From contig JAFGLR010000164.1 of the NCBI GenBank assembly GCA_016927955.1, forward strand, positions 1 through 44,105: a stretch of 44,105 bases of DNA, given 5' to 3'. The number at the start of each line of letters is the position of its first letter. Positions within the stretch are counted from its first letter, which is position 1. The stretch comes from Dehalococcoidales bacterium (lineage in GTDB: Bacteria; Chloroflexota; Dehalococcoidia; Dehalococcoidales; JAFGLR01). Below, piece by piece: positions 7,444 through 38,935 of the stretch. The notes under the pieces were generated by a model. It ran no database searches. It was not told the origin of the DNA and saw only the letters and a list, made by a program, of their open reading frames with translations. The translations under genes and the position numbers were made by a program.

Positions 7444-8822
7444 TTATCAATCCGCAAATATTTAGGATGTATGATATTCGCGGGGAAGTGGGCAGTGAAA
7501 TAAATGATGAATTTGCACACCTGCTTGGCAAAGCATTCGGGACTTATCTTAAATCGATAGCCGGGCCGACAAGATGGGTCGTGGTCGGCCGGGATAACCG
7601 GCACTCATCGGAGTCATTACATTTCGCTCTGTGTCAAGGGTTGATATCAACCGGATGCCACGTGATTGATATCGGTTTATCCCCTTCCCCGGTCATGAAT
7701 TTTGCCGTTGTTAATTGGGGATTCAGCGGCGGTATAAATGTGACCGGTAGTCATACACCTCCAAATAAGAACGGCTTCAAACTGGTAGGTCCGAAGGCGT
7801 ACCCTGTGGCCGAGAATGACGTCCGGCAGTTATTACCGATAATCGAAAAACAGGACTTTATTACTGGGAACGGGCTTTTAGCTACCATGCAGCCAAAAGA
7901 GGCATACATAGCCAGGTTAATATCTTTGGTTTCTCTGAAGCGTCCTTTAACAGTAGTGATAGATAGCGGTAACGGGGTTGCCGGTCTCCTTGCCCCTGAA
8001 CTTTTGAAAGGTATCGGATGTGATGTAATCGAGCTGTATTGCAAAGACGATGGGGACTACCCGAATCATTTTCCCAATCCGGAAAATGTCGATACGTTAC
8101 AAATTCTCCGGAAAGTAGTCGTGAACTGTGGCGCTGATATCGGGCTGGCTTTCGATGGTGACGGCGACCGGCTGGGCGTAGTAACTGAAAACGGTAATTT
8201 ATGCAGCTCTGAGCAAGTACTTATACTGTTAAGCCGGGGTCTACTGGCACGGCATCCCGGAGAAAAAGTGATACTCGATATTAAATCTTCCCAAATTGCC
8301 ATTGATGAAATCTGCCGGCTCGGCGGAGAGCCGGTAATGTGGAAAACCGGACACTCGCTTATCAAGCGCAAAATGCACCAGGAGGGAATCTTACTTGCCG
8401 GAGAAGCCAGCGGGCATTATTTTCCGGCTGAAGATTACTATCCGATAGATGATGCCCTGCTCGCCGGCTGCCGCTTGCTGGAATATTTGTCAGGACAAAC
8501 AGCTAGCCTTGCCGGTCTGCTTGCCTCTTTGAAAACGAGAGAGCAAGAAAGCTTCGAGGTACCCTGTCCCGATACAGAACAAAGCATGGTTGTGGCCGCG
8601 GTTCAGGAATATTTTAAACAAATCTATTCGGTGATCGATATCGACGGAGCTCGCATTCAAATCGACGGCGGCTGGGCTCTGGTCAGGGCGTCTAATACAT
8701 CCGCCGCATTGTCCGTAAAATTCGAAGCCGATAATCTTAAAAAGCTTGCCGGCATAAAACAGGAAGTGCTTGCTTTCCTGAAGAACTATCCGCAGGTTGA
8801 ACTGTCAGAATTATTGAATTGA
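7440..8822 (+). CDS. phosphomannomutase/phosphoglucomutase family
   Basis: IFRMYDIRGEVGSEIND, phosphoserine loop GINVTGSHTPPNKNGFK, metal loop FDGDGDRLGVV, sugar-binding GEASGHYF. Confidence 0.93.
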   Translation: MIINPQIFRMYDIRGEVGSEINDEFAHLLGKAFGTYLKSIAGPTRWVVVGRDNRHSSESLHFALCQGLISTGCHVIDIGLSPSPVMNFAVVNWGFSGGINVTGSHTPPNKNGFKLVGPKAYPVAENDVRQLLPIIEKQDFITGNGLLATMQPKEAYIARLISLVSLKRPLTVVIDSGNGVAGLLAPELLKGIGCDVIELYCKDDGDYPNHFPNPENVDTLQILRKVVVNCGADIGLAFDGDGDRLGVVTENGNLCSSEQVLILLSRGLLARHPGEKVILDIKSSQIAIDEICRLGGEPVMWKTGHSLIKRKMHQEGILLAGEASGHYFPAEDYYPIDDALLAGCRLLEYLSGQTASLAGLLASLKTREQESFEVPCPDTEQSMVVAAVQEYFKQIYSVIDIDGARIQIDGGWALVRASNTSAALSVKFEADNLKKLAGIKQEVLAFLKNYPQVELSELLN

Positions 8823-8926: not shown

Positions 8927-10033
8927 TTATGGAATGCCGCTAAGCTTCATTGATTTAATTATTTTTTCAGCTTTTATTACAGCATCGCTTGACAACGGTG
9001 CATAATCCAACGATACACAGCTTGTCTGTCCATCGTGGATTGCCCACCATAGCATATCTGCCAGACTTTTACCTGTGCCGCCATCTTCCTGGTCTTGGTA
9101 AGTTACTATCCATATTAATCCTGAAAGAGGATATGCTTCGGCGCTATTGCTATCAGAAAGCAAAGAAATAGTATTAGGTGGCAACCCTTCTGTTGCTAGA
9201 GATGCTGCATCCGGTGAGGGAGATACATAGTGACCGCTCATGTTTGCTATATCGGCACAGGAGAGGTTGAGTTCTTTGGCATGGCTTAATTCAATATATC
9301 CGATAGAGTATGGTGTTTGTGATATGATATTAGCAACGCCGCTATCTCCAACACCCTGGATATCTACAGGCAGACCAATATTTGAAGCCCCACCCATTCT
9401 TGTTTTCCAATCACTACTTACCCTGGAAAGATACCCGGAAAAAATAAAATTCGCCCCCGATTTTTCATAATGGGAAATTAATATAATATTCGCATCAGGG
9501 AGGTTCAACCCGGGGTTTAAATCGAGTATTGCCGTATCATTCCATCTGGTAATCTCTTTCAGGTATATTTGGGCGATAACATCTGCTGAAAACTTGAGGA
9601 TTCCTGCGGGAAGGTCCGGCAGGTTGTATGCTATAGTAATAACATTACAGGCTACAGGTATTGATAATGTAGCTTCCTTCGAACCATCAGTCTGCTGTAT
9701 CTGTTGCTCAATTATTTCATCTAGTACTGCAAAGTGAATAGTACCGGCAGGAAGCTGGTTTATAACATCTGTTCCGATGGGTTGGTAACTGACCTTAACC
9801 TGTGTTAATTTCTGATACGTGTTAAACCAAGTATATGATAATCGACCGAAAGTTTCTGCCCCTGCTCCAAGTAAATTACTTATTGAAGTCGGAACCGGTG
9901 GACGTTCGAAAGTAGGTACAACTCCGCCGGATTTCTTTACCTCTGAAGTAATTCTACATCCTGCAATAAACGGCATTATTATAATTATAGAAATAATAGT
10001 AAAAAATAGTAGAAGAATACTATATTTTTTCAT
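8927..10033 (-). CDS. PstS-like phosphate-binding lipoprotein
   Basis: Likely start MKKYSILLLFF, lipobox FIAGC. LLGAGAETFGRLSYTWFNTY, ITRWNDTAILDLNPGLNLPD and C-terminal LDYAPLSSDAV align with the pstS at 40842-41951. Confidence 0.87.
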   Translation of the reverse strand: MKKYSILLLFFTIISIIIIMPFIAGCRITSEVKKSGGVVPTFERPPVPTSISNLLGAGAETFGRLSYTWFNTYQKLTQVKVSYQPIGTDVINQLPAGTIHFAVLDEIIEQQIQQTDGSKEATLSIPVACNVITIAYNLPDLPAGILKFSADVIAQIYLKEITRWNDTAILDLNPGLNLPDANIILISHYEKSGANFIFSGYLSRVSSDWKTRMGGASNIGLPVDIQGVGDSGVANIISQTPYSIGYIELSHAKELNLSCADIANMSGHYVSPSPDAASLATEGLPPNTISLLSDSNSAEAYPLSGLIWIVTYQDQEDGGTGKSLADMLWWAIHDGQTSCVSLDYAPLSSDAVIKAEKIIKSMKLSGIP

Positions 10034-10101
10034 TGTTTTTATATTTGTATCAAGCATATCGGCATCCTTCCGTTCTCAGGCTTCAGTCCAAGCCCCTATT
10101 T

Positions 10102-11649
10102 TTACCACATCTCCTGCCAGTGGAGACCGATAAGTACGACATCCAATACATCGACACTACCATCCTCGTTGGCATCCTCGGCAATCCATCCTGCCGTTCC
10201 CTGCTCTCCCCAATGCAAGCCTATACTGACGATGTCCATAACATCACCGATATAGTCACCGTTAACATCCCACCTAGGACAAAAATATACTTCAACGACA
10301 TGGTCGGCTTGAATATTGGTAAGAATTAGAGTGTTTATCGGACCTTTAGACACTCCATCAAGAACAACATCGTGAATACGATAGCCGGGTGTCGCTTCAA
10401 ATTCAAAATCCTGTTCGACCCCCGCTTCAACGGTCATATAAACCGTTCCCGATGGTGATACTAAGGTAATGATGTAATTATTACTACTTACACTGAAAAC
10501 CACGTTATGGTTTTCAGTGACATTAGTAATTACATACGGATTGGACACCGGTACCGCAACACCATTATCGGTGATTGAAATGATCGAGCAGCCTTCATCC
10601 GGATTGACGGTAATTGATACCTGACCGCCGTAATCGACCGTCTGGGTAACGGGGAATGCCTGCCCGCTGCCGGCGACCGAAGCAGAAACAGTAAAGTTAT
10701 TAATAGCAAACGTGGCTTCAATTGTGTGATTGGTTATAACATTAGGAAAAGTGTACCCCGTGATTACCCCAACCGAAACTCCGTCTACCAGTACATTCCC
10801 CACTTTATATCCATAATCAGGGGTAATAATAAAGGATTGATTACTTCCATACTCTACACCCACATTACCGGACGGGGTTATCGAACCGTTTGCCCCGGTG
10901 CTGGCTGATATAGTAACTGATTCCATATATTTCCCGTTAAGCTCGGGCATACCAATACGCCACTGTTTCGGAGGGCAACTCATATCGGTTGCTATAAATT
11001 GCACGCTAATATCACCGGTTAACGTCCACGACCTATCTGTTGGCACCGAGATATCCACCTGGTTCACATTTGTAAAAGAAGGATTTGTTGGATCTGAACT
11101 TAGGCTGGCTGTAACTTCTAGCTCGGGTAAGGCTTCACCATCCAGAATTAAATTCGAGACAGTGGTGCTTGAATATGAAACTTCCTGGTTTTTCATAGTG
11201 CTCTGATTTGCGCAACTAACACTAGTGCCGGCCGTTGCTTTAATTATCAAGTTCAGAGTGTTCACTGGGCCCGGAGCATCCGGAGGAACTACCGGTGATA
11301 TAGCTACTTCTGAAACTGTGGAACTGTCGGCGCCGACCACTGTAAATAAGAGAGCAGAGGTTGTTGGATTGTAATTAAGAATAAAGCTATGGGTTAGCCC
11401 GTGTCCGGTACTTTGCGAACCGTTGTCCCAACGTACGGCGCCAGAGCCTCCATGGTTAACATAAGTATTAACGGTGCCATCACCATTATATTTCCACAAA
11501 CCCACATTCCAGTTACCCTGGTTTTGTCCAAAATGTACCGCTTGGAAAAGAGTAATGGTTGCAGGAGTGGCCGCAATAGCAGATGTGTACGGCTGAATCT
11601 GCAGCAAGCACATTACCAGAATCAAGCTAAGAATTAATATTTTCTTCAT
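10102..11649 (-). CDS. secreted protein with InlB/Listeria-Bacteroides-type beta repeats and a C-terminal type I dockerin
   Basis: Signal peptide MKKILILSLILVMCLLQIQPYTSAIA; repeats such as GSITPSGNVGVEYGSNQSFIITPDYGYKVGNVLVDG; C-terminal WDVNGDYIGDVMDIVSIGLHWGEQ...DANEDGSVDVLDVVLIGLHWQEMW. Confidence 0.85.
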   Translation of the reverse strand: MKKILILSLILVMCLLQIQPYTSAIAATPATITLFQAVHFGQNQGNWNVGLWKYNGDGTVNTYVNHGGSGAVRWDNGSQSTGHGLTHSFILNYNPTTSALLFTVVGADSSTVSEVAISPVVPPDAPGPVNTLNLIIKATAGTSVSCANQSTMKNQEVSYSSTTVSNLILDGEALPELEVTASLSSDPTNPSFTNVNQVDISVPTDRSWTLTGDISVQFIATDMSCPPKQWRIGMPELNGKYMESVTISASTGANGSITPSGNVGVEYGSNQSFIITPDYGYKVGNVLVDGVSVGVITGYTFPNVITNHTIEATFAINNFTVSASVAGSGQAFPVTQTVDYGGQVSITVNPDEGCSIISITDNGVAVPVSNPYVITNVTENHNVVFSVSSNNYIITLVSPSGTVYMTVEAGVEQDFEFEATPGYRIHDVVLDGVSKGPINTLILTNIQADHVVEVYFCPRWDVNGDYIGDVMDIVSIGLHWGEQGTAGWIAEDANEDGSVDVLDVVLIGLHWQEMW

Positions 11650-11980: not shown

Positions 11981-12054
11981 GTTCAAGCCCGGTTCGACCT
12001 GAACGAGAGTGGAATCTTGTGGTAACGAGCCGCTGTTTGACTTCACTCTGCTTT
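11981..12054 (-). ncRNA. conserved structured leader element, copy 1 (candidate cis-regulatory RNA)
   Basis: Near-identical to 37538-37609. Minus strand: GCAGAGTGAAGTCAAACAGCGGCTCGTTACCACAAGATTCCACTCTCGTTCAGGTCGAACC, with stem GAGTGAAGTC/GATTCCACTC. Confidence 0.5.
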
Positions 12055-12187
12055 CATACACTTTTCCGCTTTGTTTTCAACCGACAATTTAAAAGCCCCC
12101 CTCAAATCTGTACAGCAATTTTAATAATCCTATCGCCGGTTATTTTTCTAATCAAACTCCTTTTTTTGTAAAAAGGGTTAACATTCA

Positions 12188-22453: not shown

Positions 22454-25400
22454 TTATTCTCCTCCCGAATTCTTTTTAATAATGCTAATCTTGATTAAGT
22501 TGTCCGACCCCGCGCCGGGATCATATCCCAGCTTTATCCTGGTCGGCGCATCATAAGTGGCTTTCACTGGGTCTCTACCTAATACAATCCCGATTTCATT
22601 ACATTTGACATTGCCCCGGTCGATCTCAATAGTTCGCACCAGTTGTTCCTCATATCCTCCTGCTGATATATATCCGGCAATATTCACGGCCTCGTCGTTC
22701 ACAACTTCGGCTTTATACCCATTTACAACGGTGGACTCACTTTCTTCCATAAGAATATCGCTCGCCGTAGTGTGTTGAGACCTCTTTCTCCAGGCATTAT
22801 AAGTAAAAGCGATTTTTTGCCTTTTTAGAATAGCCAGGGCAATTACCGCACCTATCGCCAGTATCCCCGCTAATATCGGAACAAATGGGAAAGGAATAAA
22901 TCGGCTCAACGCAAAACTAGCATCCGATACGATGGTGAATATGCTGAAATGGTCGGTAGTCCACATAATAAGTTTTTTCTCCGTATCGACTTGAGAGCTA
23001 ATCTTTTCCCAACTTGAATTTTCTGTACTATAATAAATTACTTTCAGGTTTTTCTCCACTGCTCCCTTAGGCAAAGTATCGGGATCGTATACAACCGTAA
23101 TAGAAATAGGTGTAGAAAACTGACTACCGTCCGGAGCGAGATCATATGTCGACACTGGAATGATATCGCCACTGCTACTCTTGGATAAGCTGGCACGACT
23201 TATGCTGATTGTCTTTAACGGGTCTCCGTACTTATCCAACATTTGGGTGCCTTTCTTAATCTCAATCCTTACAGCGATTGCTCCTTCCCCATCCTGAACC
23301 TCGGTTAAGATGATATTTTCGGTAGCCACACCAGTCGTACTTACTTTACTACTGATATCGAAAACCACCGGAGTTTGTGCTGTGTTATTATTGTTATTGT
23401 CGTTATTATTGCCCTGATCGTTCGTATTTACTCCTGTTGAATTTCCTGTTGTGGTGGTTTGAGTCATAGAAGGATTACTACTGTCACTAAAAATAAACCC
23501 GGCCAGTGTAGCTGTACCGCCGGGAGTTGTGACGCTTACGTTCCCGCTGGTACCGTTACCTACAATCGCGGTAATCTGGGTACCGGAATTAACGGTAAAA
23601 CTCGTAGCCGCCGTACCACCGAACTTGACGTTGGTAGCCCCGGTAAAGTTCGTTCCAGTAATCACGATAGTGTCACCCGTTTTACCCGAAGTCGGGCTGA
23701 ACGAGGTTATCGTCGGCGCTCCGGTATTCGAAGTACTATTAAAGGTAAACCCGGCTAGAGTAGCTGTCCCGCCGGGAGTAGTTACACTCACGTTCCCGCT
23801 GGTACCGTTGCCTACAATCGCGGTAATCTGGGTACCGGAATTAACGGTAAAACTTGTAGCCGCCGTGCCGCCGAGTTTGACATTGGTAGCCCCGGTAAAG
23901 TTGGTCCCCGTAATCACGATAGTGTCACCCGTTTTACCCGAAGTCGGGCTGAACGAGGTTATCGTCGGCGCTGCTGCATTGAAAGTAAATCCGTCTTTAG
24001 TTGCTGTCCCATTGGGAGTGGTTACGCTAACGGTACCACTGGAACCGGTGCTTAGTATTGCCGTTATCTGAGTAGCGGAATCTACTGTAAAGCTAGCCGC
24101 AGCAGTGCCTCCGAAACTCACTGCTGTCGCCCCGGTAAAGTTGGTCCCCGTAATCACGATAGTGTCACCCGTTTTACCCGAAGTCGGGCTGAATGAGGTT
24201 ATATTGGGTGCGGTGGAGCTGATGGTGATATTTCCATTATTAACCGTGGCATTAATAATTGATTCACTTGTATCAGTACTGACTTTAAAATTTGACAACT
24301 CGATATTTGTGCTACCAGTAACTCCGGTCTTAGTTTTAAATTTTAAGGTTGCCAGCGTACCCGTTCCCGATAGGCCGATACTCACTCCGGCGCCGGCGTA
24401 GCTGATACCGGTAACTTTACCGTTCGTATTATCGATGACCGGTGTAGATGGAGTAAGCCAAGTACCGTCTTCCGAATCAATGTATTCCTTTAACCAGGTG
24501 TCTGCCGTGAGCGAAATATATTCCAGTTTCGTGGCATCGAAACTAATATCAGTCTGCCAGCCCAAAATAAACGGAGTAGTACTCAATATCAGTTCAACCG
24601 TAAATTCTGTGTCCGGTGCAACGCTGGTTGCAGATGGTGTAACCGTCACGGTTACATCGCTGCGCGGTGATAAAAAGGTAAATCCTGCAAAAGTACCGGT
24701 ACCTCCCGGTGTAGTTACGCTTACCGAGCCGCTCGACCCGGTATCCACAATTGCTGTTATATTCGTAGTCGAGTTGACGACGAAACTGGCAGCTGCGGTG
24801 CCGCCGAATTTAACCGATGAAACGTTTTCAAAATATTCGCCGCTAATTATTACCGTGGTTCCTTTAGCTGCAGTAGTTGGAGATACCGAACTAATTACAG
24901 GCTCCGGGTAATAAGTAAAGCCCGATTTGACTGCCGTTCCGTTGGGCGTAGTAACGAGAATATCTCCGGTGGCTCCCGAACCGACTACAGCCGTAATTTG
25001 TGTATCCGAAACCACATCCTTACTTGAGGAGGAGATACCGCCGAATTTAACTGTTGTTGCCCCGGTAAAATTCTTACCGTTAATAGTTATTGTAGTTCCC
25101 GTACCGCCGGATGACGGTGTAAATGATGTTACCACAGGCCCGCTAGCAGTACCGCTAAAGATAAATCCTCCTTTAGTTGCTGTTCCCATGGGACCACCTA
25201 CGCTTACGGTACCGGTAGAACCCTTACCCACAACTGCGGTTATCTGGCTAGAAGAGTTAACCGTAAAACTCGTTGCTAATGTAGTGCCGAAGCTAACACT
25301 GGTTGCCCCGGTAAAATTGGTACCGGTAATGGTTACCGTGTTACCGATATTGGCTGTTGTAGGTGAAAAAGATGTTATCGATGGGGCTGTGGCAGTTGTA

Positions 25401-28400
25401 GTAAAGGTAAAACCATCCTTGGTACCTGTCCCTCCATCAGGAGTAGTGACGCTTACGGAGCCACTACTTCCACGGCCAACTACTGCGGTTATTTTAGTGC
25501 TGGAGTCCACCGTAAAACTCTTTGCTTCGGTTGTTCCGAATGTAACGACTGAAGCACCGGTAAAATTTGTCCCGTTTATTACTACGGTATTGTTGTAGGT
25601 GGCTGAAGTCGGTGTAAAAGAGGTGATGGCAGGCGCGGCCGCAGTAAAGGTAAATCCTGACTTGGTTCCGGTACCGCTGGGGTTCGTAACGCTAATATCA
25701 CCGCTAGAACCCAAGCCGATAATTGCAGTAATCTGTATGTCGGAATCTACGGTAAAACTTTGTGCCGCTGTGCCCCCGAATTTTACAGCGGTGATATCGG
25801 TAAAATTACTTCCTGTAATCGTTACGGTAGTGCCGGTAGTTCCGCTTGTCGGCGTGAAAGAAGTAATCTCGGGAACTGCTCCAGCTTCTATTGTAATGGA
25901 ACCGGCTGTTAAGGTAGCCGGGGAAATTTTATAAGGTCCGGGAGTACCGTGGTCGTCACTCAAAAAAACATCAACCGGAGTGATACTCGTGCCACCTGTT
26001 ACCCCACTCTTTACCGTAAAGGTAAGCGTACATAACGTCCCCGCCCCATTTAACCCCGTGGGAACTCCCAATCCGGCGTAGGAAATACCAGTGATATGAC
26101 CGTTTGTATTATCAACAACCGGATTATATGCTTGCCAGGTACCACCGTGACTTGTGATATAGTCTTTGAGAAAGCTGCCTTCGGTAATGCCCGTATACTG
26201 TAGCTTGGTGGCGTCGAAATCGACGTTCCCCCTCCAACCCAAAAACCGCTTGGTACTGCCAACGAAATCGACCTTCAAATCTACCGTTATAGTTTCACCC
26301 GCAATAACAGTACCGGATGATGGATTTGCGGTAAAACTAATATTCGCACCGGAAGGAACAAATGCAAATCCGCCCTGCAAACTGCCCAGCGAATATGACC
26401 GACTGTCCGCTGTGCTAATGGTAATCGCACCACTATGACCGTTTCCAACTGTGGCTATAATTTGCGTATCGGTCTTACTCACTATGGTTCCGGCAGCCGA
26501 ACCGAATGTAACCGAGTTGACATTATCCAAATCGGTGCCGGTGATGGTTATTTGGTCCACCGCGTCGCCATAGGCCGGAGAGAATGTGGTTATCGAGAGA
26601 GGGATAAAGCTAAATCCGGTTTTCGTAGCAGTCCCGGCAGCGGTAGTTACTGCCACACAGCTTCCCGTACCTGTTCCGTTCAATACAGCGACAATCTGGG
26701 TATCGGTATTATTGGTAATCGTCGCCGCGGTGCCGCTTTCTCCGGATAATTTTGAGCCTATTTTTACAGTGGTGGCGCCTGCCAGATTGGAACCGCTTAT
26801 CGTAATTGTGTCGTTATATTGTCCCGAAGACGGACTGATTGCAGTTATTACCGGAGCGGTGGCGGTAACGCTGTAGGTAAACCCTTCTTTCGAAGCTATA
26901 CCTCCTGGAGTTTCCACCGAAACTGGGCCACTTGAACCATTACCCAATATTGCGGTTATCTGAGTTGCCGAATCTATATTAAAACTTGCTACCACAGTAC
27001 TGCCGACGGTAACTCCGGTAGCTCCGATAAGGTTAGTTCCGGTGATTACTAGTGTGGTGCCCGAACTTCCGTTGGTAGGAGTGAATGACGTAATGGATGG
27101 GGCTGGAATAAAGGCAAATCCCGGCAGGACACCAATCCCGTTATTGGTAGTTACTCTAACATCTCCGGTGGTTCCGTTACCAACCACAGCCGTGATTTGG
27201 GAGTCACAATTGAACGTATAGCTGGCCGCAGCTATGCCACCAATACTTACCCCCGTCACCCCGGTAAAATGTAATCCGAATATTGTTATTTTAGTGCCGT
27301 TCCCACCTGATTTACTACCCAGTTTATTAATGACCGAGGTTATTGCAGGTGCTGTTGCCGGACTACTATAAGTAAATCCATCTTTAGCAGATATGCCCCC
27401 AGAAGTTTCTACCGTGATTGCTCCACTCGACCCATTACCCAGAACAGCTGTAATTTGGGTGTTGGAATTAACCGAAAAGGTAGCAGCGGCAGTTCCCCCG
27501 AAACTCACCATCGTCGTCCCGGTGAGATTAGTCCCGGTGATCACGATAGAATCTCCACTGCCACCTGAGGTTGGTGTAAAGGAGGTGATAGTGGGTGCCG
27601 GTGCATTTGGGTTTGCTATATAGGTAAATCCGGTCTTAGTCCCGGTTCCACCGGATGTTGTAACGCTGACCGTTCCGCTGGAACCGCCGCCTAATACTGC
27701 CGTGATTTGTGTAGCGGAGTTAACGGTAAAGCTTTGTGCCGGCGTCCCGCCGAAGCTTACGGCGGTGGCCCCGATCAGACCCGTACCGGAAATAACTATG
27801 GAGTCGCCCAATTGACCCGATGTCGGACTAAAAGACATTATCGTCGGTACCGGAACAGCCCCGGTCGATACTGTAGCCGTAACAACGGTGGCGTTTATTA
27901 TCTGGGCGGCCTGTTCGTCACTGATCTTAACGTTAGTCGGTTTAATAATAGTGTCACCGGTCGCCCCGGTTTTAACCTCGAATGTAAGAGTGCAGAGGGT
28001 TCCCTGACCGGTCTGTCCAGTACTAATACCGAGACTGGAACCGCCTAAACTTACCTTACCTGTCGCATTATCGATCATTGCTTGCACCGGGAAATAGTTG
28101 CCTCCACGTCCCGTCACGAAATCACTAAACCATGTCCCTTGTTCCGCCGCAGTGCAGGTCAGTTTCGTCGGGTCGAATAATATATCACTCTGCCAGCCTA
28201 AGAATGCAACTGATGTATTAAGGTCCAGATTCACGGTAAATGTATCACCCGGGTCGGCACTGGTACCAGAAGGAGTTGCAGTGAGCGTGATATCGCTCCT
28301 CGGAGCCAAATAGGTGAATCCGGTAGCTGTGGCCGTACCCCCCGGTGTGGTCACACTTACCGTGCCGCTCGAGCCTTCTCCCACGACGGCAGTAATCTGG

Positions 28401-31400
28401 TCGATAGCATTTACCTCAAAGCTTGCGGCGGCAGTGCCGCCGAAACTTACTGTCGTAGCTTCGGTAAAATTATTGCCGGCAATCACAACTGTCGTGCCGT
28501 TAATCCCCGTCGTCGGAGAGAAAGAGGTAATCGAAGGCCCCGGAACGTAAATAAATCCGGTTTTGGTAGCAGTACCGCCGAGTGTCGTAACGCTGACCGT
28601 CCCACTGGAGCCGCTGCCCACTGTTGCCGTAATTTGAGTAGTAGAATTAACGGTAAAGCTTTGTGCTGCCGTACCGCCGAAACTTACTGCAGTCGCGCCC
28701 GTAAATCCGCTGCCTATAATTGTTACTGACGTCCCGTTACCTCCTGACGTCGGTGTAAATGATGAGATACTCGGAGTTGTGACAGCGCCGGTGAAAGAGA
28801 AACCGTCTTTGGTGGCATTACCGCCGGGTGTCGTAACGCTGACTACTCCATTCGAACCGCTGCCCACTATCGCCGTAATTTGAGTGGCAGAATTAACGGT
28901 AAAGCTTTGTGCTGCCGTATCGCCGAAACTCACTGCGGTTGCTCCGCTAAGACCTGTGCCGGTAATAATTATGGAGTCGCCCTGCTGGCCCGATGTCGGG
29001 TTAAAAGATGTTATTGTCGGCGTCGTTAAAAATGTAAACCCTGATTTGGTAGCGATACCGTCAGCGGTAATTACCGCCACATAACCGCTAGCCCCCGAAC
29101 CTACAGTCGCTGTAATAAGGGTATCGGTATTCGTGATTACTGTGGCAGTTGCACCCCCGTTACCCGATGCATCCGTTCCCAGTTTAACTGCTAGGGCATT
29201 CCCCAAATTATAACCGGCAATGCTGATTGTATCTCCGGTCCCACATGACGGAGGGGAAAAAAGCGTAATCGACGGCAATGACGGTACGTAAGTAAAACCG
29301 GCTTTCGTCGCTGAGCCGCTTGCCGTAGTAACAATCACATTACCACTCGTTCCGGCACCCACTACGGCTGTTATCTGGTAATCCGTATCGACGTGGAAAC
29401 TTGTCGCCGAAGTGCCGCCGAAGCTTACTGCTGAAGTACCGATGAAATTGGTCCCGATAATCGTAATCGTATCCCCGGTTTTACCCGATGATGGCGAAAA
29501 TCGTAGAATGGTCGGCGGTGTTGAGCTAACCTGTTGATTCCAATGAGTACCGATAGCCACAACGTCTAATACATCAACCATTCCGTCCCGGTTCACATCA
29601 TCACGGATCCAATGCGGACTCCCTGTTTCTCCCCAATGGTTTCCAATGGAAACCACATCCAGGATATCGCACACTCCGTCCTCGTTGACATCCCAGTCGG
29701 GGCTACGTATATTCTGTATCGTAATATTTCCCGCGGTCACGATCGTATCGACCTTGACCCCACCTTCACCGGCTACGGTTATATTAATCGGAGTTACATA
29801 GGTTGTAACCGATGTATCCGGGGTAACGGGAAAACTCTCGAAACTCAGCGTGCAAAGTATCCCCTCACCGGTCAGCCCGGTAGCCACGCCGATACCGGCA
29901 TAACTAAGACCGGTAACTTTGCCGTTCACATTATCGATATAATAAGGCATTGATGTTATCGAACCGTGCATACTCGTTATGTAGTTCCTCAGGAAACCAC
30001 CCTCGATAATTCCGGTACATTGTAATCTAGCAGGATCGAAATTGATTTCTCCCTGCCATCCCAAGAACGGTATTTGGGTATCTATTTTTAGTTCTACTGT
30101 AACGTTATCCCCGCCGTTTATCGTATTGCTGGAGGGCACCGCCGTAACGCGGGTATTGGGGGTAGGCAAGAAAGTAAAAAGCCCGCTGCTTACTACAGGG
30201 TTTGGACTCAACGGCGTTTTCACCGATACATGACCCGAGGCTCCGGAACCTACTCTAGCTATTATTTGCGATGTTGTATTGGATATTATCGTCCCGACGA
30301 CTCCACCAACACCGCTGGCGTCGGTACCGAATTTAACCTCGGTAGCTCCATCCAGATTGTTACCTATTATTGTGATATTATCGCCCTCATGGGCCGAAAT
30401 AGGTGTAAAGATAGATACACCGGCAACCAAACCATTGTAAGTAAATCCGGGCAGAGTAGCCGTACCACCGGGTGAGGATACGTACACGCTGCCGCTCGCA
30501 CCGTAACCGACTGTCGCCGTTAATTGCGTCGACGAATCTATTGTGAAGCTCGAAGCGTTTACTCCTCCAAACTTAACGGATGTTACATACTCAAGGTTTG
30601 TTCCCGTAATCGTTACCTTCTCGCCGCTGTAAGCTGCAGTCGGGGTAAAGGAAGCGATGGTAGACGGCGGAGCGAAGGTAAAGCCCGCCTTGCTGCCGGT
30701 GCCGTAAGCCCCGGTAACCGTAACCTGTCCGCTGGAACCGCTCCCAACTATCGCTGTTATTTGTGTATCGGAATTCACGGTGAGACTCTGGGCGGCCGTG
30801 CCACCAAAGCTCACTGCGGTCGCTCCGGTAAAATGGCTTCCGGTAATGACCACAGTCGCGCCGCTCCCTGCAGTGACGGGTGAAAACGAGCTAACGACCG
30901 GTACCGGTAAAAAGGTGAAACCGTTGTTGGTTGCGGTACCACCCAGCGTAGTTACATTGACCGTACCGCTGCTACCACCGGCAACAACAGCCGTTATCTG
31001 AGTATCGGAGTCCACAGTAAAGTTTTGTGCTGCCGTGCCCCCGAAACTCACCGTAGTTGCCCCGGTGAAATTAGTACCGGTTATTATTACCGAATCTCCT
31101 TGTTTTCCCGATGCAGGATTATAAGCGGTAATCGTTGGTGCCGGGATAAACGTGAAGCCGTTTTTACTTGCCGTACCTCTGGGTGAAACCACGCCGACCG
31201 AGCCGCTACTACCACCGGCAACAATAGCCGTTATCTGAGTATCGGAGTCCGCAGAAAAGCTTTGTGCTGCCGTACCGCCGAAGCTTACTGCGGTTGCCCC
31301 GGTAAAACCGCTCCCGGTTATTATTATCGTTGTTCCGTTGCCGCCTGATGTCGGGGCAAATGATTCTATAGCCGGAGCCGCCAAAAAACCAAACCCGTCT

Positions 31401-32407
31401 TTAGTTGCGGTGCCGCCCTGTGTGGTTACACTGACCGAGCCGCTACTGCCACCGGCAACAATAGCCGTTATCTGAGTATCGGAGTCCACAGTAAAGCTCT
31501 GTGCTGCCGTGCCTCCGAAACTCACCGCAGTCGCTCCGATAAAGCCGGTACCTGTGATTATTATGGAGTCGCCCTGCTTCCCCGATATGGGGTTGAAAGC
31601 GGTAATCGTCGGCCCGGTGACGAAGGTAAAGCCGTCTTTAGTCGCGGTGCCACCCGGTGTAGTTACACTGACCACTCCGCTGCTGCCACTGGCAACAATG
31701 ACGGTTATCTGAGTATCGGAATTAACGATAAAGCTCTGCGCCGCCGTGCCGCCGAAACTCACCGCGTACGCTTCGGTAAAATTTGTGCCTGTAATTATTA
31801 TTGAGTCACCTTGCTTCCCTGACGAGGGATTAAAATCAGTGATGGTTGGCGCCGGAGGCGGGCTGCCGATATTCACACTTCCTGAAGTAACCGTTACGCC
31901 GCTTACAGGTATTGCCCCCTCACCCGAAACCTTCACGTTTGCTAGGTTTATCGGGGTGACAGCATCAATAGCATCCTTAGCGTGGAACGTTATCGTACAG
32001 AGAGTTCCGCTGCCGGTAAGACCCCCGGTCGTTACATTTATCGCCGCACAACCAAAAGCCGTTATCATACCGCTGGTTTGAGCACCGGGAGTAAAGTAGG
32101 TAAAACCACCGTGAGTGGTAGCAAAGTTCTTTAAAAATGTACCTTCGGTAACACTCACATAATCGATTTTAGTGGCGTCATAGCTTAAATCGGCCTGCCA
32201 GCCCAGGAAAGGAGTCGTCGTATCGATAGTAATATCCACCGTGAAGGTAGCCCCATTGGCAACGGACTGGGCGGCTGGTGAAATGCTTACGGTGCATGAA
32301 CTGGCGGCAACCCCATTCACTGGAAACGCCAGTAGACTAACCAGTAAGCAAATAATAAGTCCGACACTGAAGACCGGTTTTATCTTTATAATTCTTTTAT
32401 TAGACAT
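22454..32407 (-). CDS. giant membrane-anchored scaffold: five cohesin-like domains, about 26 TIG/IPT repeats, internal dockerin, C-terminal TM and cytoplasmic tail
   Basis: Cohesin-like segments begin at VSISPAAQSVANGATFTVDI, RVTAVPSSNTINGGDNVTVEL, ITLTATPSGTSADPGDTFTVNL, ISFTANPSSGTVIAGETITVDL and VTVTVTPSATSVAPDTEFTVEL. Internal dockerin WDVNEDGVCDILDVVSIGNHWGET...DVNRDGMVDVLDVVAIGTHWNQQ. C-terminal TM FIPFPFVPILAGILAIGAVIALAIL. Start set at MSNKRIIKIK. Confidence 0.92.
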   Translation of the reverse strand: MSNKRIIKIKPVFSVGLIICLLVSLLAFPVNGVAASSCTVSISPAAQSVANGATFTVDITIDTTTPFLGWQADLSYDATKIDYVSVTEGTFLKNFATTHGGFTYFTPGAQTSGMITAFGCAAINVTTGGLTGSGTLCTITFHAKDAIDAVTPINLANVKVSGEGAIPVSGVTVTSGSVNIGSPPPAPTITDFNPSSGKQGDSIIITGTNFTEAYAVSFGGTAAQSFIVNSDTQITVIVASGSSGVVSVTTPGGTATKDGFTFVTGPTITAFNPISGKQGDSIIITGTGFIGATAVSFGGTAAQSFTVDSDTQITAIVAGGSSGSVSVTTQGGTATKDGFGFLAAPAIESFAPTSGGNGTTIIITGSGFTGATAVSFGGTAAQSFSADSDTQITAIVAGGSSGSVGVVSPRGTASKNGFTFIPAPTITAYNPASGKQGDSVIITGTNFTGATTVSFGGTAAQNFTVDSDTQITAVVAGGSSGTVNVTTLGGTATNNGFTFLPVPVVSSFSPVTAGSGATVVITGSHFTGATAVSFGGTAAQSLTVNSDTQITAIVGSGSSGQVTVTGAYGTGSKAGFTFAPPSTIASFTPTAAYSGEKVTITGTNLEYVTSVKFGGVNASSFTIDSSTQLTATVGYGASGSVYVSSPGGTATLPGFTYNGLVAGVSIFTPISAHEGDNITIIGNNLDGATEVKFGTDASGVGGVVGTIISNTTSQIIARVGSGASGHVSVKTPLSPNPVVSSGLFTFLPTPNTRVTAVPSSNTINGGDNVTVELKIDTQIPFLGWQGEINFDPARLQCTGIIEGGFLRNYITSMHGSITSMPYYIDNVNGKVTGLSYAGIGVATGLTGEGILCTLSFESFPVTPDTSVTTYVTPINITVAGEGGVKVDTIVTAGNITIQNIRSPDWDVNEDGVCDILDVVSIGNHWGETGSPHWIRDDVNRDGMVDVLDVVAIGTHWNQQVSSTPPTILRFSPSSGKTGDTITIIGTNFIGTSAVSFGGTSATSFHVDTDYQITAVVGAGTSGNVIVTTASGSATKAGFTYVPSLPSITLFSPPSCGTGDTISIAGYNLGNALAVKLGTDASGNGGATATVITNTDTLITATVGSGASGYVAVITADGIATKSGFTFLTTPTITSFNPTSGQQGDSIIITGTGLSGATAVSFGDTAAQSFTVNSATQITAIVGSGSNGVVSVTTPGGNATKDGFSFTGAVTTPSISSFTPTSGGNGTSVTIIGSGFTGATAVSFGGTAAQSFTVNSTTQITATVGSGSSGTVSVTTLGGTATKTGFIYVPGPSITSFSPTTGINGTTVVIAGNNFTEATTVSFGGTAAASFEVNAIDQITAVVGEGSSGTVSVTTPGGTATATGFTYLAPRSDITLTATPSGTSADPGDTFTVNLDLNTSVAFLGWQSDILFDPTKLTCTAAEQGTWFSDFVTGRGGNYFPVQAMIDNATGKVSLGGSSLGISTGQTGQGTLCTLTFEVKTGATGDTIIKPTNVKISDEQAAQIINATVVTATVSTGAVPVPTIMSFSPTSGQLGDSIVISGTGLIGATAVSFGGTPAQSFTVNSATQITAVLGGGSSGTVSVTTSGGTGTKTGFTYIANPNAPAPTITSFTPTSGGSGDSIVITGTNLTGTTMVSFGGTAAATFSVNSNTQITAVLGNGSSGAITVETSGGISAKDGFTYSSPATAPAITSVINKLGSKSGGNGTKITIFGLHFTGVTGVSIGGIAAASYTFNCDSQITAVVGNGTTGDVRVTTNNGIGVLPGFAFIPAPSITSFTPTNGSSGTTLVITGTNLIGATGVTVGSTVVASFNIDSATQITAILGNGSSGPVSVETPGGIASKEGFTYSVTATAPVITAISPSSGQYNDTITISGSNLAGATTVKIGSKLSGESGTAATITNNTDTQIVAVLNGTGTGSCVAVTTAAGTATKTGFSFIPLSITTFSPAYGDAVDQITITGTDLDNVNSVTFGSAAGTIVSKTDTQIIATVGNGHSGAITISTADSRSYSLGSLQGGFAFVPSGANISFTANPSSGTVIAGETITVDLKVDFVGSTKRFLGWRGNVDFDATKLQYTGITEGSFLKDYITSHGGTWQAYNPVVDNTNGHITGISYAGLGVPTGLNGAGTLCTLTFTVKSGVTGGTSITPVDVFLSDDHGTPGPYKISPATLTAGSITIEAGAVPEITSFTPTSGTTGTTVTITGSNFTDITAVKFGGTAAQSFTVDSDIQITAIIGLGSSGDISVTNPSGTGTKSGFTFTAAAPAITSFTPTSATYNNTVVINGTNFTGASVVTFGTTEAKSFTVDSSTKITAVVGRGSSGSVSVTTPDGGTGTKDGFTFTTTATAPSITSFSPTTANIGNTVTITGTNFTGATSVSFGTTLATSFTVNSSSQITAVVGKGSTGTVSVGGPMGTATKGGFIFSGTASGPVVTSFTPSSGGTGTTITINGKNFTGATTVKFGGISSSSKDVVSDTQITAVVGSGATGDILVTTPNGTAVKSGFTYYPEPVISSVSPTTAAKGTTVIISGEYFENVSSVKFGGTAAASFVVNSTTNITAIVDTGSSGSVSVTTPGGTGTFAGFTFLSPRSDVTVTVTPSATSVAPDTEFTVELILSTTPFILGWQTDISFDATKLEYISLTADTWLKEYIDSEDGTWLTPSTPVIDNTNGKVTGISYAGAGVSIGLSGTGTLATLKFKTKTGVTGSTNIELSNFKVSTDTSESIINATVNNGNITISSTAPNITSFSPTSGKTGDTIVITGTNFTGATAVSFGGTAAASFTVDSATQITAILSTGSSGTVSVTTPNGTATKDGFTFNAAAPTITSFSPTSGKTGDTIVITGTNFTGATNVKLGGTAATSFTVNSGTQITAIVGNGTSGNVSVTTPGGTATLAGFTFNSTSNTGAPTITSFSPTSGKTGDTIVITGTNFTGATNVKFGGTAATSFTVNSGTQITAIVGNGTSGNVSVTTPGGTATLAGFIFSDSSNPSMTQTTTTGNSTGVNTNDQGNNNDNNNNNTAQTPVVFDISSKVSTTGVATENIILTEVQDGEGAIAVRIEIKKGTQMLDKYGDPLKTISISRASLSKSSSGDIIPVSTYDLAPDGSQFSTPISITVVYDPDTLPKGAVEKNLKVIYYSTENSSWEKISSQVDTEKKLIMWTTDHFSIFTIVSDASFALSRFIPFPFVPILAGILAIGAVIALAILKRQKIAFTYNAWRKRSQHTTASDILMEESESTVVNGYKAEVVNDEAVNIAGYISAGGYEEQLVRTIEIDRGNVKCNEIGIVLGRDPVKATYDAPTRIKLGYDPGAGSDNLIKISIIKKNSGGE
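29533..29698 (-). other. internal type I dockerin module within the giant scaffold
   Basis: Two DxNxDGxxDxxD loops separated by IGNHWGETGSPHWIRD. Confidence 0.88.
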
Positions 32408-32445
32408 TGCCACTCCTCTCTGTTTTCCGGAATGTTCCACGTTAT

Positions 32446-34017
32446 TTATCTGACTGGTCTTTTCGGCAAAGTTCTACGTCGATTTTTCGACTTATTCCGT
32501 CTGACAATTATTATTAGAATTATTCCGAAAACCGCCACGCCGCCGATTATCCCTGCTACCAGGCCCCAGTTCGTCCCCGAAGAAATGGATGAGATGCCGG
32601 TCGTATCTTCGTCCGTGAACGGGTTATTTGTGCTGTTACCGTTGGTAGAACTGTCTGAAGTATGGTCTCCTCCCAACCCGATGACCGTTCCGGTCAGGTC
32701 AAGTACTTGCACGTCGAAGCTGATAGTGCCCGTGGCAATGTTTCTCGTGAGGTTGGGCATTATCCATTTAGTACCGTTGTAATATGCCAGGATAAGCCTA
32801 TCCAGGGTAAAGTCTTTTACCTCTTCCGGCGTATAATGTACGGTTACATGAGCAGTACCCTGGGTCAAACCGGGCGCTCTCACATCCACGTATTTGATAG
32901 CGGTCTTTCCGGTACCGCCCTGGGTAACAGGGGCGCTGAACGGTACACCGGTGCCCGGGTCTCCCGAATATCTGCCAATAATAACCGCTCCGAAACCGGC
33001 GGCCCCTCTTAACTCTACCTCTACTCCTGCTTTTTCAATCGCATCGACGTAAAAATTGGCGCCGTCTTCTTCAAAATCATAATCCACCACTACGAGACTG
33101 TCCGGGTCCATTCCGGGCAGTACCAAATTCACCCCGAAGGCGGTCGTAGGAGTCTCAGTTACTATTATCTTATCCGTCCTTGTATCAATAACCGTTGCCA
33201 CGCCCGTTATAATACTCGATTCATATATGTACTCACCGGCAGGAAGACCCGTGGCCGGACCGGGATGGGCAATAAATGTACGTTCAAAACTGGGAATAAG
33301 TGAGGGGTTCTCTAACAATATCTCCGCCTGGGCTACCGTATTACCAGTTATGTCTTTCACAACCACTCTGTTGAAAACACTTTCGCCTTTAATCCTCGTG
33401 ATACCGGTGTTCAACAACGTGGTCTGTATTTCCAAAGGTTTACCGGTTATCGCACCGGTAACTGCCAGGTTTACGATCTGACCGGCTGGATTATGCTTGG
33501 TACTGCCTACTTTTAAAATAATCGGGATATCTATAGCTATGATTGCGGCGGCTCCCTGTCCCGTCCCGTAAGGATTGCTGAATATACTTAATAAGGCGTA
33601 TTTTTCCCCCTCGGTTGCGTCAGCCGGTACGTTTATGGCGAAGTTTATTTTTACCTGCTCGCCCGGTTCAATACGGAAGGTAGCAGGAGTGACATTCGAA
33701 ATATATGTCCTGGCACTGAACGGGGTATCGTCTTGCGGTTCCAGTTCTGTCGTTACCCCTTGCCGGGTCTGTCCCAATCCCTTGACCACCACATTCATAT
33801 CCATGATGCTTGCCGTCGGGTCGCTGGTAAAGGTTATCGTTTTATTAAGTGTCTCTCCGGGAGTAACAAATAAGTCATCCGAGTAATCGATTTTAGCCGG
33901 TTCCACAGTGAAAGCGTTATCGGCTAACACTCTTGTACTGTTGAAATTTACGAATCCTGCAGCTATTATTACAATGGCAACTAAATAAACTAGAAAGCGG
34001 GATATTCTCAATTCCAT
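32446..34017 (-). CDS. membrane-anchored surface protein with DUF916-like beta-sandwich N-terminus
   Basis: Signal peptide, FTVEPAKIDYSDDLFVTPGETLNKTITFTSD, C-terminal TM WGLVAGIIGGVAVFGIILIIIV followed by a basic tail. Confidence 0.7.
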   Translation of the reverse strand: MELRISRFLVYLVAIVIIAAGFVNFNSTRVLADNAFTVEPAKIDYSDDLFVTPGETLNKTITFTSDPTASIMDMNVVVKGLGQTRQGVTTELEPQDDTPFSARTYISNVTPATFRIEPGEQVKINFAINVPADATEGEKYALLSIFSNPYGTGQGAAAIIAIDIPIILKVGSTKHNPAGQIVNLAVTGAITGKPLEIQTTLLNTGITRIKGESVFNRVVVKDITGNTVAQAEILLENPSLIPSFERTFIAHPGPATGLPAGEYIYESSIITGVATVIDTRTDKIIVTETPTTAFGVNLVLPGMDPDSLVVVDYDFEEDGANFYVDAIEKAGVEVELRGAAGFGAVIIGRYSGDPGTGVPFSAPVTQGGTGKTAIKYVDVRAPGLTQGTAHVTVHYTPEEVKDFTLDRLILAYYNGTKWIMPNLTRNIATGTISFDVQVLDLTGTVIGLGGDHTSDSSTNGNSTNNPFTDEDTTGISSISSGTNWGLVAGIIGGVAVFGIILIIIVRRNKSKNRRRTLPKRPVR

Positions 34018-34040
34018 ACCCTATAATTATTTTTTCTTTT

Positions 34041-34070
34041 AAGGGGGGTGATTATTAAGTCACCCCCCTT
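34041..34070 (-). other. perfect 11-bp inverted repeat (intercistronic stem-loop)
   Basis: AAGGGGGGTGA(34041-34051)/TCACCCCCCTT(34060-34070) with an 8-nt loop, no downstream T-tract on the minus strand. Confidence 0.7.
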
Positions 34071-34113
34071 TGGACATTAATAAGCGTCCTTAGTCTATTT
34101 ATTTCTACGAGGT

Positions 34114-36126
34114 CTAGTAATTAATGGTTGAAGCCGTGAAAGTAACCGTGATCTTGTAGTATGAATCTTTTGTATATGGGTCGGTCCAAAGAACCGGTTG
34201 AGTAAACATCAGGTTGACATCCTGACCGCCGGTGCAGTAATCTTGCCCGAATGGAGTGCCGGTTGCGATTTCTTGGTCGCTTCCATTGAGGATAATTCCA
34301 TTGATTTTCAGCGGGTTGGCAAGCTTAACGCTGGTATCGTAGAGAGTACCGGTATATTTGGTCATGAAGCCGTTATTGGTACCCCTGGCAGTTACCTTCC
34401 AGTCGGTGTTCGAGAAGATAGTCATGGCGCGCATAGCCGAGTTGTTCATGGAAGGCTGTAGGTCCCAGCAGCAGACATCCCAAGGAGCAACGAAGGTAAG
34501 AACCGGAGCGAGGGTTGCCGGAATATCTAACTGGTCCACCTGGTCCGCCGGTTGAGCTATCGGGAGGTCGCAGCTGCCGATAATTAACGTGACAACAGCG
34601 TTGGTACCCGGCAGGACATTCGCCATCGGGTCGCCATCCGGCCCGACGAAAATCGGGTTACTAACGTACAGGATGGTATCAACGCCGGCTAAAAGCTGTT
34701 CCTGGGTTGAGGAATCATCGACGGACATGAAGGTTACGACAGCTAAAACGTCACCGACGTCTTGCGGGTCGTATGCCGGGTAGGTTCCCGTGCCATGGTC
34801 GCCGCCTATGAGAGCATAGGCAATCGTGAGAGCACCGGGCTGAGCATCGATGTTCGAGTATATTTCCAAACCTTCTGTAGCGGCAAAATCGGCAAATCCG
34901 TTACCTATTTTAACGCTGTCAGCAACGTATTGGACTTTTTCAGGGTCATAGTTGATGGTCGCCTGCCAACCGCGGATCGTAGCTGCTGTGTCATCGAGGT
35001 TTGCTTCGACCTGGATTTCGAACATATCACCGGTCGGTTTGGCTGCCTGGGTTACGGGAGTGAGAGCGATGTTGCCTGACGGGGCAAAATACTCAAAGGC
35101 CTGAGCTACCGTAGCACTGCCGCCGTAAGTCGTCACTTCTACATCGTTGACACCGATGGGAGTACCGGCAGCTACTATAGCCTGGACGGAAGTATCGGAA
35201 TAGCCCGGGACGACGGCTGCCGGGGTGACTCCGACTTTAATACTCTGGACGTTATTCGGGACAGTGAGAAAACCGGAGCCGGTGACGGTGATAACCGTAT
35301 TGGTGGTGCCGAAAGCGGGGTCAACCGCGGTAGCGGTCGGAGCGGCGACAAAGGTAAAGCCGGCTTTGGTCGCTGTGCCGCCGGGATTTTCTACGGATAC
35401 TGAGCCGGAAGCGCCGGCACCGACGGTGGCCACAATCTGGGTGGCGGTGTTGGAAACGATGGTACCGGCAATGCCGCCGAAGGTTACAGCGGAAGCACTG
35501 CTCAGGTTGGTACCGGTAATGGTGATGTTAACACCGTTACCGCCGAAAGCTGGGGTGAAGCCGGTGATGGCGGGTGAAGGCCAGACGACATTGGCTGCAC
35601 CATTAACGAGTACCGTGCCGGGAATAGTGACAGCATTCTGGTCGGACAATTTGCTGGCCGGAGGGGCAGCGAAAGTTATTGGGCTGTTCGTCGGTGTAGC
35701 ACCCGGATTCACGGTGAAAGACATCACAGCCAGTGTGCCGTTGCCGGTAGCACCACCGGTCGGGCCGCCGGTCTGGGCGATGGCGAAAGCATCGATTATA
35801 CCGGGAGTCGAAGAATCGCCGGGATTGAAGTAGGTATTGCCGGTGCCGGCATAATCCTTAATGAAAGTGCCTTCGGAAACCGAGTTGAAGGTCAGGACGG
35901 CCGTGTCGTAGTTTATGGTGAACTGGCAACCGCGGACCTGGTAATCGGTATCTACATTAATGTTTACGCTAAAGGTCTGGCCGGGATTTACGGTGGCCGG
36001 TGCTTCCATGGTAACGCTTGAATAGCTGTCGGCAGCCGCAACGGCGGAAACAGGTATCAGGCTGACCAGGGCTACTGCGGGCAGCACCAACCCTACCACC
36101 TTTTTGATTAGTTTACCTAAATTCAC
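34114..36126 (-). CDS. secreted protein with two cohesin-like domains and TIG repeats
   Basis: SSVTMEAPATVNPGQTFSVNINVDTDYQVRGCQFTINYDTAVLTFNSVSEGTFIKDY and GNIALTPVTQAAKPTGDMFEIQVEANLDDTAATIRGWQATINYDPEKVQYV are cohesin-like; TIG units ITGFTPAFGGNGVNITITGTNL. Confidence 0.82.
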   Translation of the reverse strand: MNLGKLIKKVVGLVLPAVALVSLIPVSAVAAADSYSSVTMEAPATVNPGQTFSVNINVDTDYQVRGCQFTINYDTAVLTFNSVSEGTFIKDYAGTGNTYFNPGDSSTPGIIDAFAIAQTGGPTGGATGNGTLAVMSFTVNPGATPTNSPITFAAPPASKLSDQNAVTIPGTVLVNGAANVVWPSPAITGFTPAFGGNGVNITITGTNLSSASAVTFGGIAGTIVSNTATQIVATVGAGASGSVSVENPGGTATKAGFTFVAAPTATAVDPAFGTTNTVITVTGSGFLTVPNNVQSIKVGVTPAAVVPGYSDTSVQAIVAAGTPIGVNDVEVTTYGGSATVAQAFEYFAPSGNIALTPVTQAAKPTGDMFEIQVEANLDDTAATIRGWQATINYDPEKVQYVADSVKIGNGFADFAATEGLEIYSNIDAQPGALTIAYALIGGDHGTGTYPAYDPQDVGDVLAVVTFMSVDDSSTQEQLLAGVDTILYVSNPIFVGPDGDPMANVLPGTNAVVTLIIGSCDLPIAQPADQVDQLDIPATLAPVLTFVAPWDVCCWDLQPSMNNSAMRAMTIFSNTDWKVTARGTNNGFMTKYTGTLYDTSVKLANPLKINGIILNGSDQEIATGTPFGQDYCTGGQDVNLMFTQPVLWTDPYTKDSYYKITVTFTASTINY

Positions 36127-36182
36127 GTTTTTCCTCCATTTATTTTGCTGTACTTTTACTTATTTCGTTACTATTAGCGGAA

Positions 36183-37361
36183 TTACCATTCATTGGCCGG
36201 GGTCGTGTAGGTGATGTTCCACCACAGACCGACGGAAACGACATCGTTGATATCGATACTGCCGTCGCGGTTGACATCTTTGGTGATAACGTAGCCTTGT
36301 TGGCCGGTGCTTTTGTTCCAGGACAGACCGATGCTTACGATATCGTTGATATCGACAGTACTGCTGGCATCAACATCCTGGCGGGGGTTAACCATGACGA
36401 AGCCCTGGTCTTTAACGGTGTTCTGACCGGCATCGCTGTACAGGTAATCACGGAAAGCCGCGCCGTAAGCGCCGAGATTGGGAGTAACACCGTTGGCGAC
36501 GAGGTAAAGATACCGGGAGATAGCATAGGTCCCCCTGGTAACGTTCTGGTCGGTCGGAACAACCGCCGGAGCCGCATCATTAGCTTTGACGGGTATGGCT
36601 CTTACGTCGCCGCTGATGCTGCCGAGATAACCGACACCGATGTATCCGATAGAGCCAACAGCGGTGGCATTAACATCGGCAACCACCTCCGCATTGGAGT
36701 CTTTCCTGGTGTAACCAGCGGTAGCGTATAGAGGACCGAGATATGCCTCTTCAGCTGCTTCATTCATAGCACACTTGGATACGATGGTATCGCGGGTGCC
36801 GGAACCGATAATCCTGGCGATAGGAAAGATGTCGGTAGCGGGCCAGGCCGCATTGATATCGCTCCATTTTGTATAGATACCTTCGTAGATGTCGCCGATT
36901 ACAGTAGTAGTCAGGGCGTCGATAGCCGATAGGGAGCCGTCATCGTGGATGATGACGCAAACACCGTCACGAGCGACGACATCGTTTCTAATATCGGGGT
37001 AGGAGCTTTTCTTATTGCTGGAGCACATACCGAGATTCGCATCTCCCTGCGTTACGGCATAGGCGCCGTGGCCGGAGCCGCCGGAGTAGAGCTGGGCAAT
37101 GCAGCCCGAGCCGCCGGCACTGGCCTGGAAAGGACCCACCGCCTGCACCTGTCCGACCGTGGTCACACCAAGGGAGGCTGCGACTATGGGATACAGCGTG
37201 GTGGAGCCGGCGATTCTCAAATTCGAGCTAGAATCCCATGCATCTAGATAGTCATCGGCAGCTAATACCGGAAGAGCAGCGGTTACCAGGGCAGTAGCTG
37301 CTAATACGATACTAACAGCTCTGACGCTGAATTTTGATTTCAAGAACCTCTTGAAGTTCAC
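36183..37361 (-). CDS. secreted PstS-like binding protein with a C-terminal dockerin
   Basis: LRIAGSTTLYPIVAASLG, ASAGGSGCIAQLYSGG, ARIIGSGTRDTIVSKCAMNE, SIGYIGVGYLG (PstS-like), then DVDASSTVDINDIVSIGLSWNKSTGQQGYVITKDVNRDGSIDINDVVSVGLWWN (dockerin, ~36183-36389). No lipobox. Confidence 0.92.
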   Translation of the reverse strand: MNFKRFLKSKFSVRAVSIVLAATALVTAALPVLAADDYLDAWDSSSNLRIAGSTTLYPIVAASLGVTTVGQVQAVGPFQASAGGSGCIAQLYSGGSGHGAYAVTQGDANLGMCSSNKKSSYPDIRNDVVARDGVCVIIHDDGSLSAIDALTTTVIGDIYEGIYTKWSDINAAWPATDIFPIARIIGSGTRDTIVSKCAMNEAAEEAYLGPLYATAGYTRKDSNAEVVADVNATAVGSIGYIGVGYLGSISGDVRAIPVKANDAAPAVVPTDQNVTRGTYAISRYLYLVANGVTPNLGAYGAAFRDYLYSDAGQNTVKDQGFVMVNPRQDVDASSTVDINDIVSIGLSWNKSTGQQGYVITKDVNRDGSIDINDVVSVGLWWNITYTTPANEW

Positions 37362-37537
37362 TTTATTTTTTTCTCCTTAAATTTTATTAATTCGGATTAC
37401 GATACTAGATGTTATTGTTAAGGCGATTATATTTTGTCCTCGGCTTATCGTTAGCTTCCCGGCGGCCCACCTCCTGTTTTTTGAGTTAGCATACCCGAGG
37501 TTGACACGATGATATTACGGGAGTAGAATAAATTTAA

Positions 37538-37609
37538 CGCTCGGGTTCGACCTGAGCTGGAGGGAAGTCTTGTGGAAACGAGCCGCTGTGTGACTTCCCT
37601 CTGCTTTTT
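37538..37609 (-). ncRNA. conserved structured leader element, copy 2 (candidate cis-regulatory RNA)
   Basis: Minus strand AAAGCAGAGGGAAGTCACACAGCGGCTCGTTTCCACAAGACTTCCCTCCAGCTCAGGTCGAACCCGAGCG, with perfect stem GAGGGAAGTC/GACTTCCCTC and a second hairpin GCTCAGGT/ACCCGAGC. Confidence 0.5.
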
Positions 37610-37796
37610 ATGCCAAGCTACTATTTTCTTTCTTAAACAAGTTGATTTGTTTGAGGTATAGAAATATCGTCTGACCATGACTCAGGGTTGTCTTTCGGCT
37701 AGATACTTCCATTTTCCGTTTCCCATCCCTTTCCGTTTATTTTCACTCAGCCAAGTTTAGTTGTATCTCTTGAGCAACCAGTTACAATAGTAACAG

Positions 37797-37829
37797 ACCG
37801 ATGTTAGGGTTATTTTAGGGAAATGTTAT
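37797..37829 (-). promoter_or_regulatory. putative Pho-box-like repeats, three 11-bp units
   Basis: Minus strand ATAACATTTCC|CTAAAATAACC|CTAACATCGGT. Confidence 0.35.
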
Positions 37830-38071
37830 AATTTGATTAATTTTTATGCATATTTTAAGGTATTATTTAGATTCAGTATTTACATAAAATCGTTAAAACT
37901 TGTCATAATATGTTATTTTTCACTTTTAGTACTGAAGTAACTGAAACTGATTGCTTCCTTATATATATACTAAGGTAAGGGTACGGTCTCGTAATCGTAA
38001 CTTGCAGACGTAAATACCGGTCGACCGGCCGGGTAATTTGCACCATTACGGTTGGAGTTCGGCAGCTGGTT

Positions 38072-38917: not shown

Positions 38918-38935
38918 ATTTCACCTTCCTTGAAT

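Follow-up and report, generated by a model that had tools for sequence, protein, structure and literature searches.

A candidate small RNA gene divergent from a PstS-dockerin/cohesin operon in a member of the Dehalococcoidales

We analysed a 44,105-nucleotide stretch of DNA from a Dehalococcoidales bacterium (contig JAFGLR010000164.1; hereafter the window) and found that a conserved element within it is, with a probability of about 70% as judged from its sequence, a small RNA gene of ∼70–75 nt that is transcribed divergently from a PstS-dockerin/cohesin operon. Two copies of the element lie in the window, copy 1 at 11981..12054 (+) and copy 2 at 37536..37609 (+). The first-pass annotation had reported two intergenic blocks sharing long identity, and BLAST of the 12-kb copy against the whole source genome (2.29 Mb, 177 contigs) confirmed them where they had been placed, with 11981–12054 and 37539–37609 being 86% identical across 64 nt (E 4e-15). 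The copy number in this genome is two, both copies are intergenic, and their flanking intergenic sequences have no further clear similarity beyond the element. In the proposed mechanism RNA polymerase would start at a sigma-70-type promoter at 37501–37529 (+), and the product would consist of a 5'-terminal hairpin with the tip GGGUUCGACCU followed by a long hairpin, the closing stem of which may double as a terminator. We infer both the transcription of the element and the ends of the transcript; for copy 2 the predicted start is at ∼37536–37537, i.e. 7 nt past the −10 box, and the predicted 3' end is at ∼37609.

A covariance-model search seeded with copies 1 and 2, of the kind proposed at the outset, revealed a third copy among 156 genomes of the order (G081:C1:156829-156754, minus strand; 46 bits, E 8.5e-8), which also lies 5' of a PstS-dockerin gene; the next-best match had an E value of 0.34. 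In the window, the R1/R2 covariance model matched copy 2 at 37539–37609 (+). The genome carrying the third copy, G081, is complete (a single 1.73-Mb contig) and belongs to another family of the same order. A second model, built from all three copies, was run against 394 genomes drawn from the class and 399 drawn from the phylum and yielded no convincing match beyond these three copies. Roughly half of the known species are covered by the genome set, in which class and phylum are represented as samples. Model matches in G372 and G338 that scored 33 bits were rejected as they lay inside an ABC-transporter gene. Exact matches to the core TGTGGNAACGAGCCGCTG (six in IMG/VR and 15 in GTDB genome contigs) all had different flanks and were attributed to chance, and the core pattern with two mismatches gave single scattered matches in the genomes of the order, where the control pattern also matched in many genomes. 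The reading of the element as a small RNA rests on three copies in two genomes.

The element is predicted to form two hairpins. Hairpin 1 (GCUCGGGUUCGACCUGAGC, 37539..37557, +) contains GGGUUCGACCUGAGC, which is identical in G081, and its tip is invariant. Hairpin 2 (37559..37602, +) has an 11-bp stem, 37559–37569 with 37592–37602, and a loop that holds a small inner hairpin, GUGG/CCGC. Copy 2 and the G081 copy fold to the same shape, with energies of −35.5 and −36.2 kcal/mol (z −4.8 and −5.1). In the three-copy alignment, four of the 18 pairs show two-sided compensatory changes, three of them in the stem of hairpin 2, and 96% of the cells of the two-hairpin structure are paired; when the partners were slid by 1–3 columns this fell to 33–54%, with at most two two-sided pairs. 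This covariation, which comes from three sequences and is supportive rather than overwhelming, points to a conserved secondary structure, and together with the fold z-scores of copy 2 and G081, both about −5, it upholds the original suggestion of a structured RNA.

Two narrower structural claims held only in part. The first was that stem pairing is preserved between the window copies by a compensatory change. From copy 2 to copy 1 the stem GAGGGAAGTC/GACTTCCCTC becomes GAGTGGAATC/GACTTCACTC, which does include a change from G-C to T-A, accompanied by a single G.U wobble and a single A.C mismatch; copy 1 takes a different minimum-energy fold (−23.7 kcal/mol) and reaches only −16.1 kcal/mol in the consensus shape. 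The second was that the loop is nearly invariant. This is true of the two window copies but not of G081, which shares with them GGGUUCGACCUGAGC and the stem GAAGGAAGUC/GACUUCCUUC and differs in the large loop, i.e. hairpin 1 and the stem are conserved instead. Over 32 nt comprising the promoter end and hairpin 1, a window copy and the G081 copy are 88% identical, compared with ∼28–40% for the proteins.

The first-pass annotation had read each window copy on the minus strand, as the leader of a dockerin gene and perhaps a riboswitch or protein-binding element; an attenuator within that gene's 5' UTR would be a further form of this reading. Each of the three copies does have a dockerin gene beside it, always with the element on the 5' side and in the same orientation, and the minus strand can fold too (z −3.4 and −2.9). 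However, the strongest promoter signal is on the other strand. Copy 2 is preceded by a sigma-70-type promoter, TTGACA-17-TAGAAT (37501..37529, +), which agrees with the consensus at 11 of 12 positions and has the second-best PWM score in the window with both strands counted; the best, at 29685–29713 (+), lies inside and antisense to a giant gene (22454..32440). A promoter of the same geometry, TTGACG-17-TACAAT (L065 1610–1582, minus strand), precedes the G081 copy and is likewise second-best in a 15-kb G081 stretch, again with both strands counted. Both promoters read into the element, opposite to the dockerin gene, and end 5–9 nt ahead of hairpin 1, so that the predicted start is within a few nucleotides of the hairpin 1 base. 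Upstream of the element the promoter scan found no gene-strand site of comparable strength; in copy 2 a gene-strand TATAAT with a modest total score (7.4) lies at 37426–37431, between the element and the gene.

The folding of the two strands leads in the same direction, as the intact copies fold 11–12 kcal/mol less well on the minus strand (−24.3 kcal/mol for copy 2 and −23.9 kcal/mol for G081), and a G.U pair at columns 10–20 that is kept in both would become A.C on the opposite strand. On the plus strand no evident protein gene follows the element at any of the three places. The promoter position, the fold energies and this lack of a plus-strand gene downstream make a free small RNA likelier than a leader, and we consider a minus-strand leader rather unlikely. 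A ligand core conserved across many genomes, of the kind seen in riboswitches, was not found either, since the 156 order, 394 class and 399 phylum genomes held convincing matches only in the source genome and G081, and between these two the loop differs. A search of Rfam 15 likewise returned no family at gathering score, the sub-threshold matches being spurious (e.g. sR49, 12.9 bits against 50). The element looks like an undescribed small RNA candidate, new rather than a riboswitch leader.

The position of the element near the gene, which is fixed, and the divergent layout would also suit a cis-antisense arrangement, in which the PstS-dockerin transcript begins with a long 5' UTR that spans the element and with which the plus-strand RNA forms a duplex. 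We regard this as improbable, slightly more so than the leader, because the gene strand would need a promoter upstream of the element and offers no good candidate there, and because antisense pairing alone needs no compensatory changes inside hairpins.

Copy 2 and the G081 copy each have their own promoter directly before a conserved, covarying structure. Copy 1 has no promoter at the matching position (best score 4.5). The 3' end is less clear: a terminator-like run of five T residues follows the stem of hairpin 2 in copy 2 (37605..37609, +), but the run is weak in G081 (GGCATTTC), which leaves this end uncertain, and it is broken in copy 1; the terminator scan ignores loops as long as this one. 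Given the missing promoter and T-run and the poor fold, copy 1 probably arose by duplication and, after losing its promoter, is now decaying. Its loop, however, is nearly unchanged relative to copy 2 despite the missing promoter, and is better kept than its stem, which is not what pure decay would predict and counts against this explanation.

Two further explanations fare worse. A GTG start inside hairpin 2, behind a purine-rich SD-like stretch, opens a frame in all three copies (29 codons in copy 2, 50 in copy 1 and 31 in G081), so that part of the conservation could in principle reflect a translated short ORF; the window frames are 37572–37661 (+), METSRC..., and 12019–12171 (+), MVTSRC.... 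However, it is not very unusual for three such frames to be open by chance, the peptides differ in both sequence and length, and several substitutions track base pairs, and we consider coding very improbable. Hardly any weight goes to mobile or repetitive DNA (REP- or MITE-like, or an attachment site) or to a regulator-bound DNA palindrome, which the inverted-repeat structure and the two genome copies might suggest: the source genome has two copies in 2.3 Mb with no scattering rather than many dispersed ones, BLAST against relatives, phages and plasmids gave nothing convincing (no phage match and one chance plasmid match), the gene context is the same across families, and the promoter start falls at the base of the element.

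The small RNA candidate is associated in both genomes with a conserved gene cluster. Copy 2 is divergent from a gene for a PstS-type binding protein with a C-terminal dockerin (36183..37361, −; PBP_like_2 E 1.5e-17, TIGR02136 E 6e-34; repeats DVDASSTVDINDIV and DVNRDGSIDINDVV), which is followed on the same strand by a cohesin protein (34114..36126; Cohesin E 4e-20) similar to the second gene of the G081 cluster, a surface protein with a hydrophobic C-terminus (32446..34017; 39% identity, E 5e-35, to the third G081 gene) and the giant gene 22454..32440, whose 3328-aa product has C-terminal and cohesin-like similarity to the fourth (E 1e-19). In G081 a PstS-type gene with two dockerin repeats has the element ∼147 nt upstream, and the cohesin-like gene, third surface protein and large fourth protein that follow are colinear with the 37.5-kb locus, their proteins being ∼28–40% identical to those of the window over the aligned parts. 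Downstream of copy 1 lies a dockerin protein gene (10102..11649, −), the dockerin region of which is 50–69% identical to the other window dockerins, and after it a PstS gene (8927–10057; TIGR00975 E 2e-66). The distance from element to dockerin start codon is ∼150–330 nt in all three copies, and the third copy in particular bears out the proposed link to dockerin genes. PstS homologues (E 1e-7) occur in 39 of the 156 genomes of the order, and among the 32 PstS loci examined only the genes of the source genome and G081 have the dockerin repeat; both of these genomes carry the element. It was absent from the plain PstS loci that were checked, which lack a dockerin, and from partly homologous clusters in G077, G078, G099 and, in the source genome itself, contigs C71 and C86.

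The wider window contains other genes related to phosphate. A pstSCAB set (38072–41951, −) adjoins the PstS-dockerin, cohesin, TIG, RCC1 and giant 3328-aa surface proteins (22454–41951 overall), and the cohesin/dockerin system of the window is apparently devoted to phosphate capture, not to cellulose. At the contig end, 43698–44102 (+) encodes a fragment similar to the G081 PstS-dockerin protein (26%, E 2e-7). Within 3906–8822 (+) a PhoU domain is joined to an aminoglycoside-phosphotransferase-like kinase domain, with GAK-system ATP-grasp, HprK-related kinase B and phosphomannomutase-type genes behind it. Beside the element a Pho box of the B. subtilis type had been suspected by eye, and a scan showed none there; three TTTACA-like repeats with 11-bp spacing (TAAACAATATTTTTACACTATCCTTACA), resembling a Pho box, lie at 42347–42374 (+), ∼400 bp away from where pstS (40842–41951) starts.

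As to function, the most economical reading of the element's position, which is the sole ground for it, is that the RNA might regulate the adjacent phosphate-binding/cohesin operon, i.e. the surface phosphate-capture system; we hold this only tentatively. The RNA might act by base pairing through the large loop of hairpin 2, or hairpin 1 might serve as a binding site for a protein. Duplex prediction against the start regions of the window genes gave no match clearly beyond shuffles, and the loop, which differs in G081, does not support a base-pairing target shared by the two genomes. More speculative still is the idea of a lineage-restricted regulatory RNA dedicated to phosphate capture by cohesins and dockerins, which would control PstS-dockerin expression and be kept or lost with the gene. 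The analysis yields an undescribed RNA candidate that can be found with a model, in a setting where dockerins and cohesins join phosphate-binding proteins rather than cellulases.

In the literature searched we found nothing on Dehalogenimonas or other Dehalococcoidia with dockerins, nor on Dehalogenimonas noncoding RNA; in a survey of noncoding RNA in 50 genomes the rdhA motif is the only mention for Dehalococcoides. The element resembles intergenic sigma-70 small RNAs in having its own promoter, a length of ∼70–75 nt, two hairpins, a terminator-like 3' end and a divergent position relative to an operon, but differs in matching no Rfam 15 family. With REP and other palindromic repeats it shares a short inverted-repeat unit present in more than one copy, but it has only two copies, its own promoter and a fixed gene context. 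The rdhA motif of Dehalococcoides (PMC11109978) is comparable as a small, conserved and structured RNA that is associated with one gene class and apparently comes from the same order. That motif is described as lying immediately upstream of its gene (PMC11109978), whereas the better-supported strand of our element points away from the gene.
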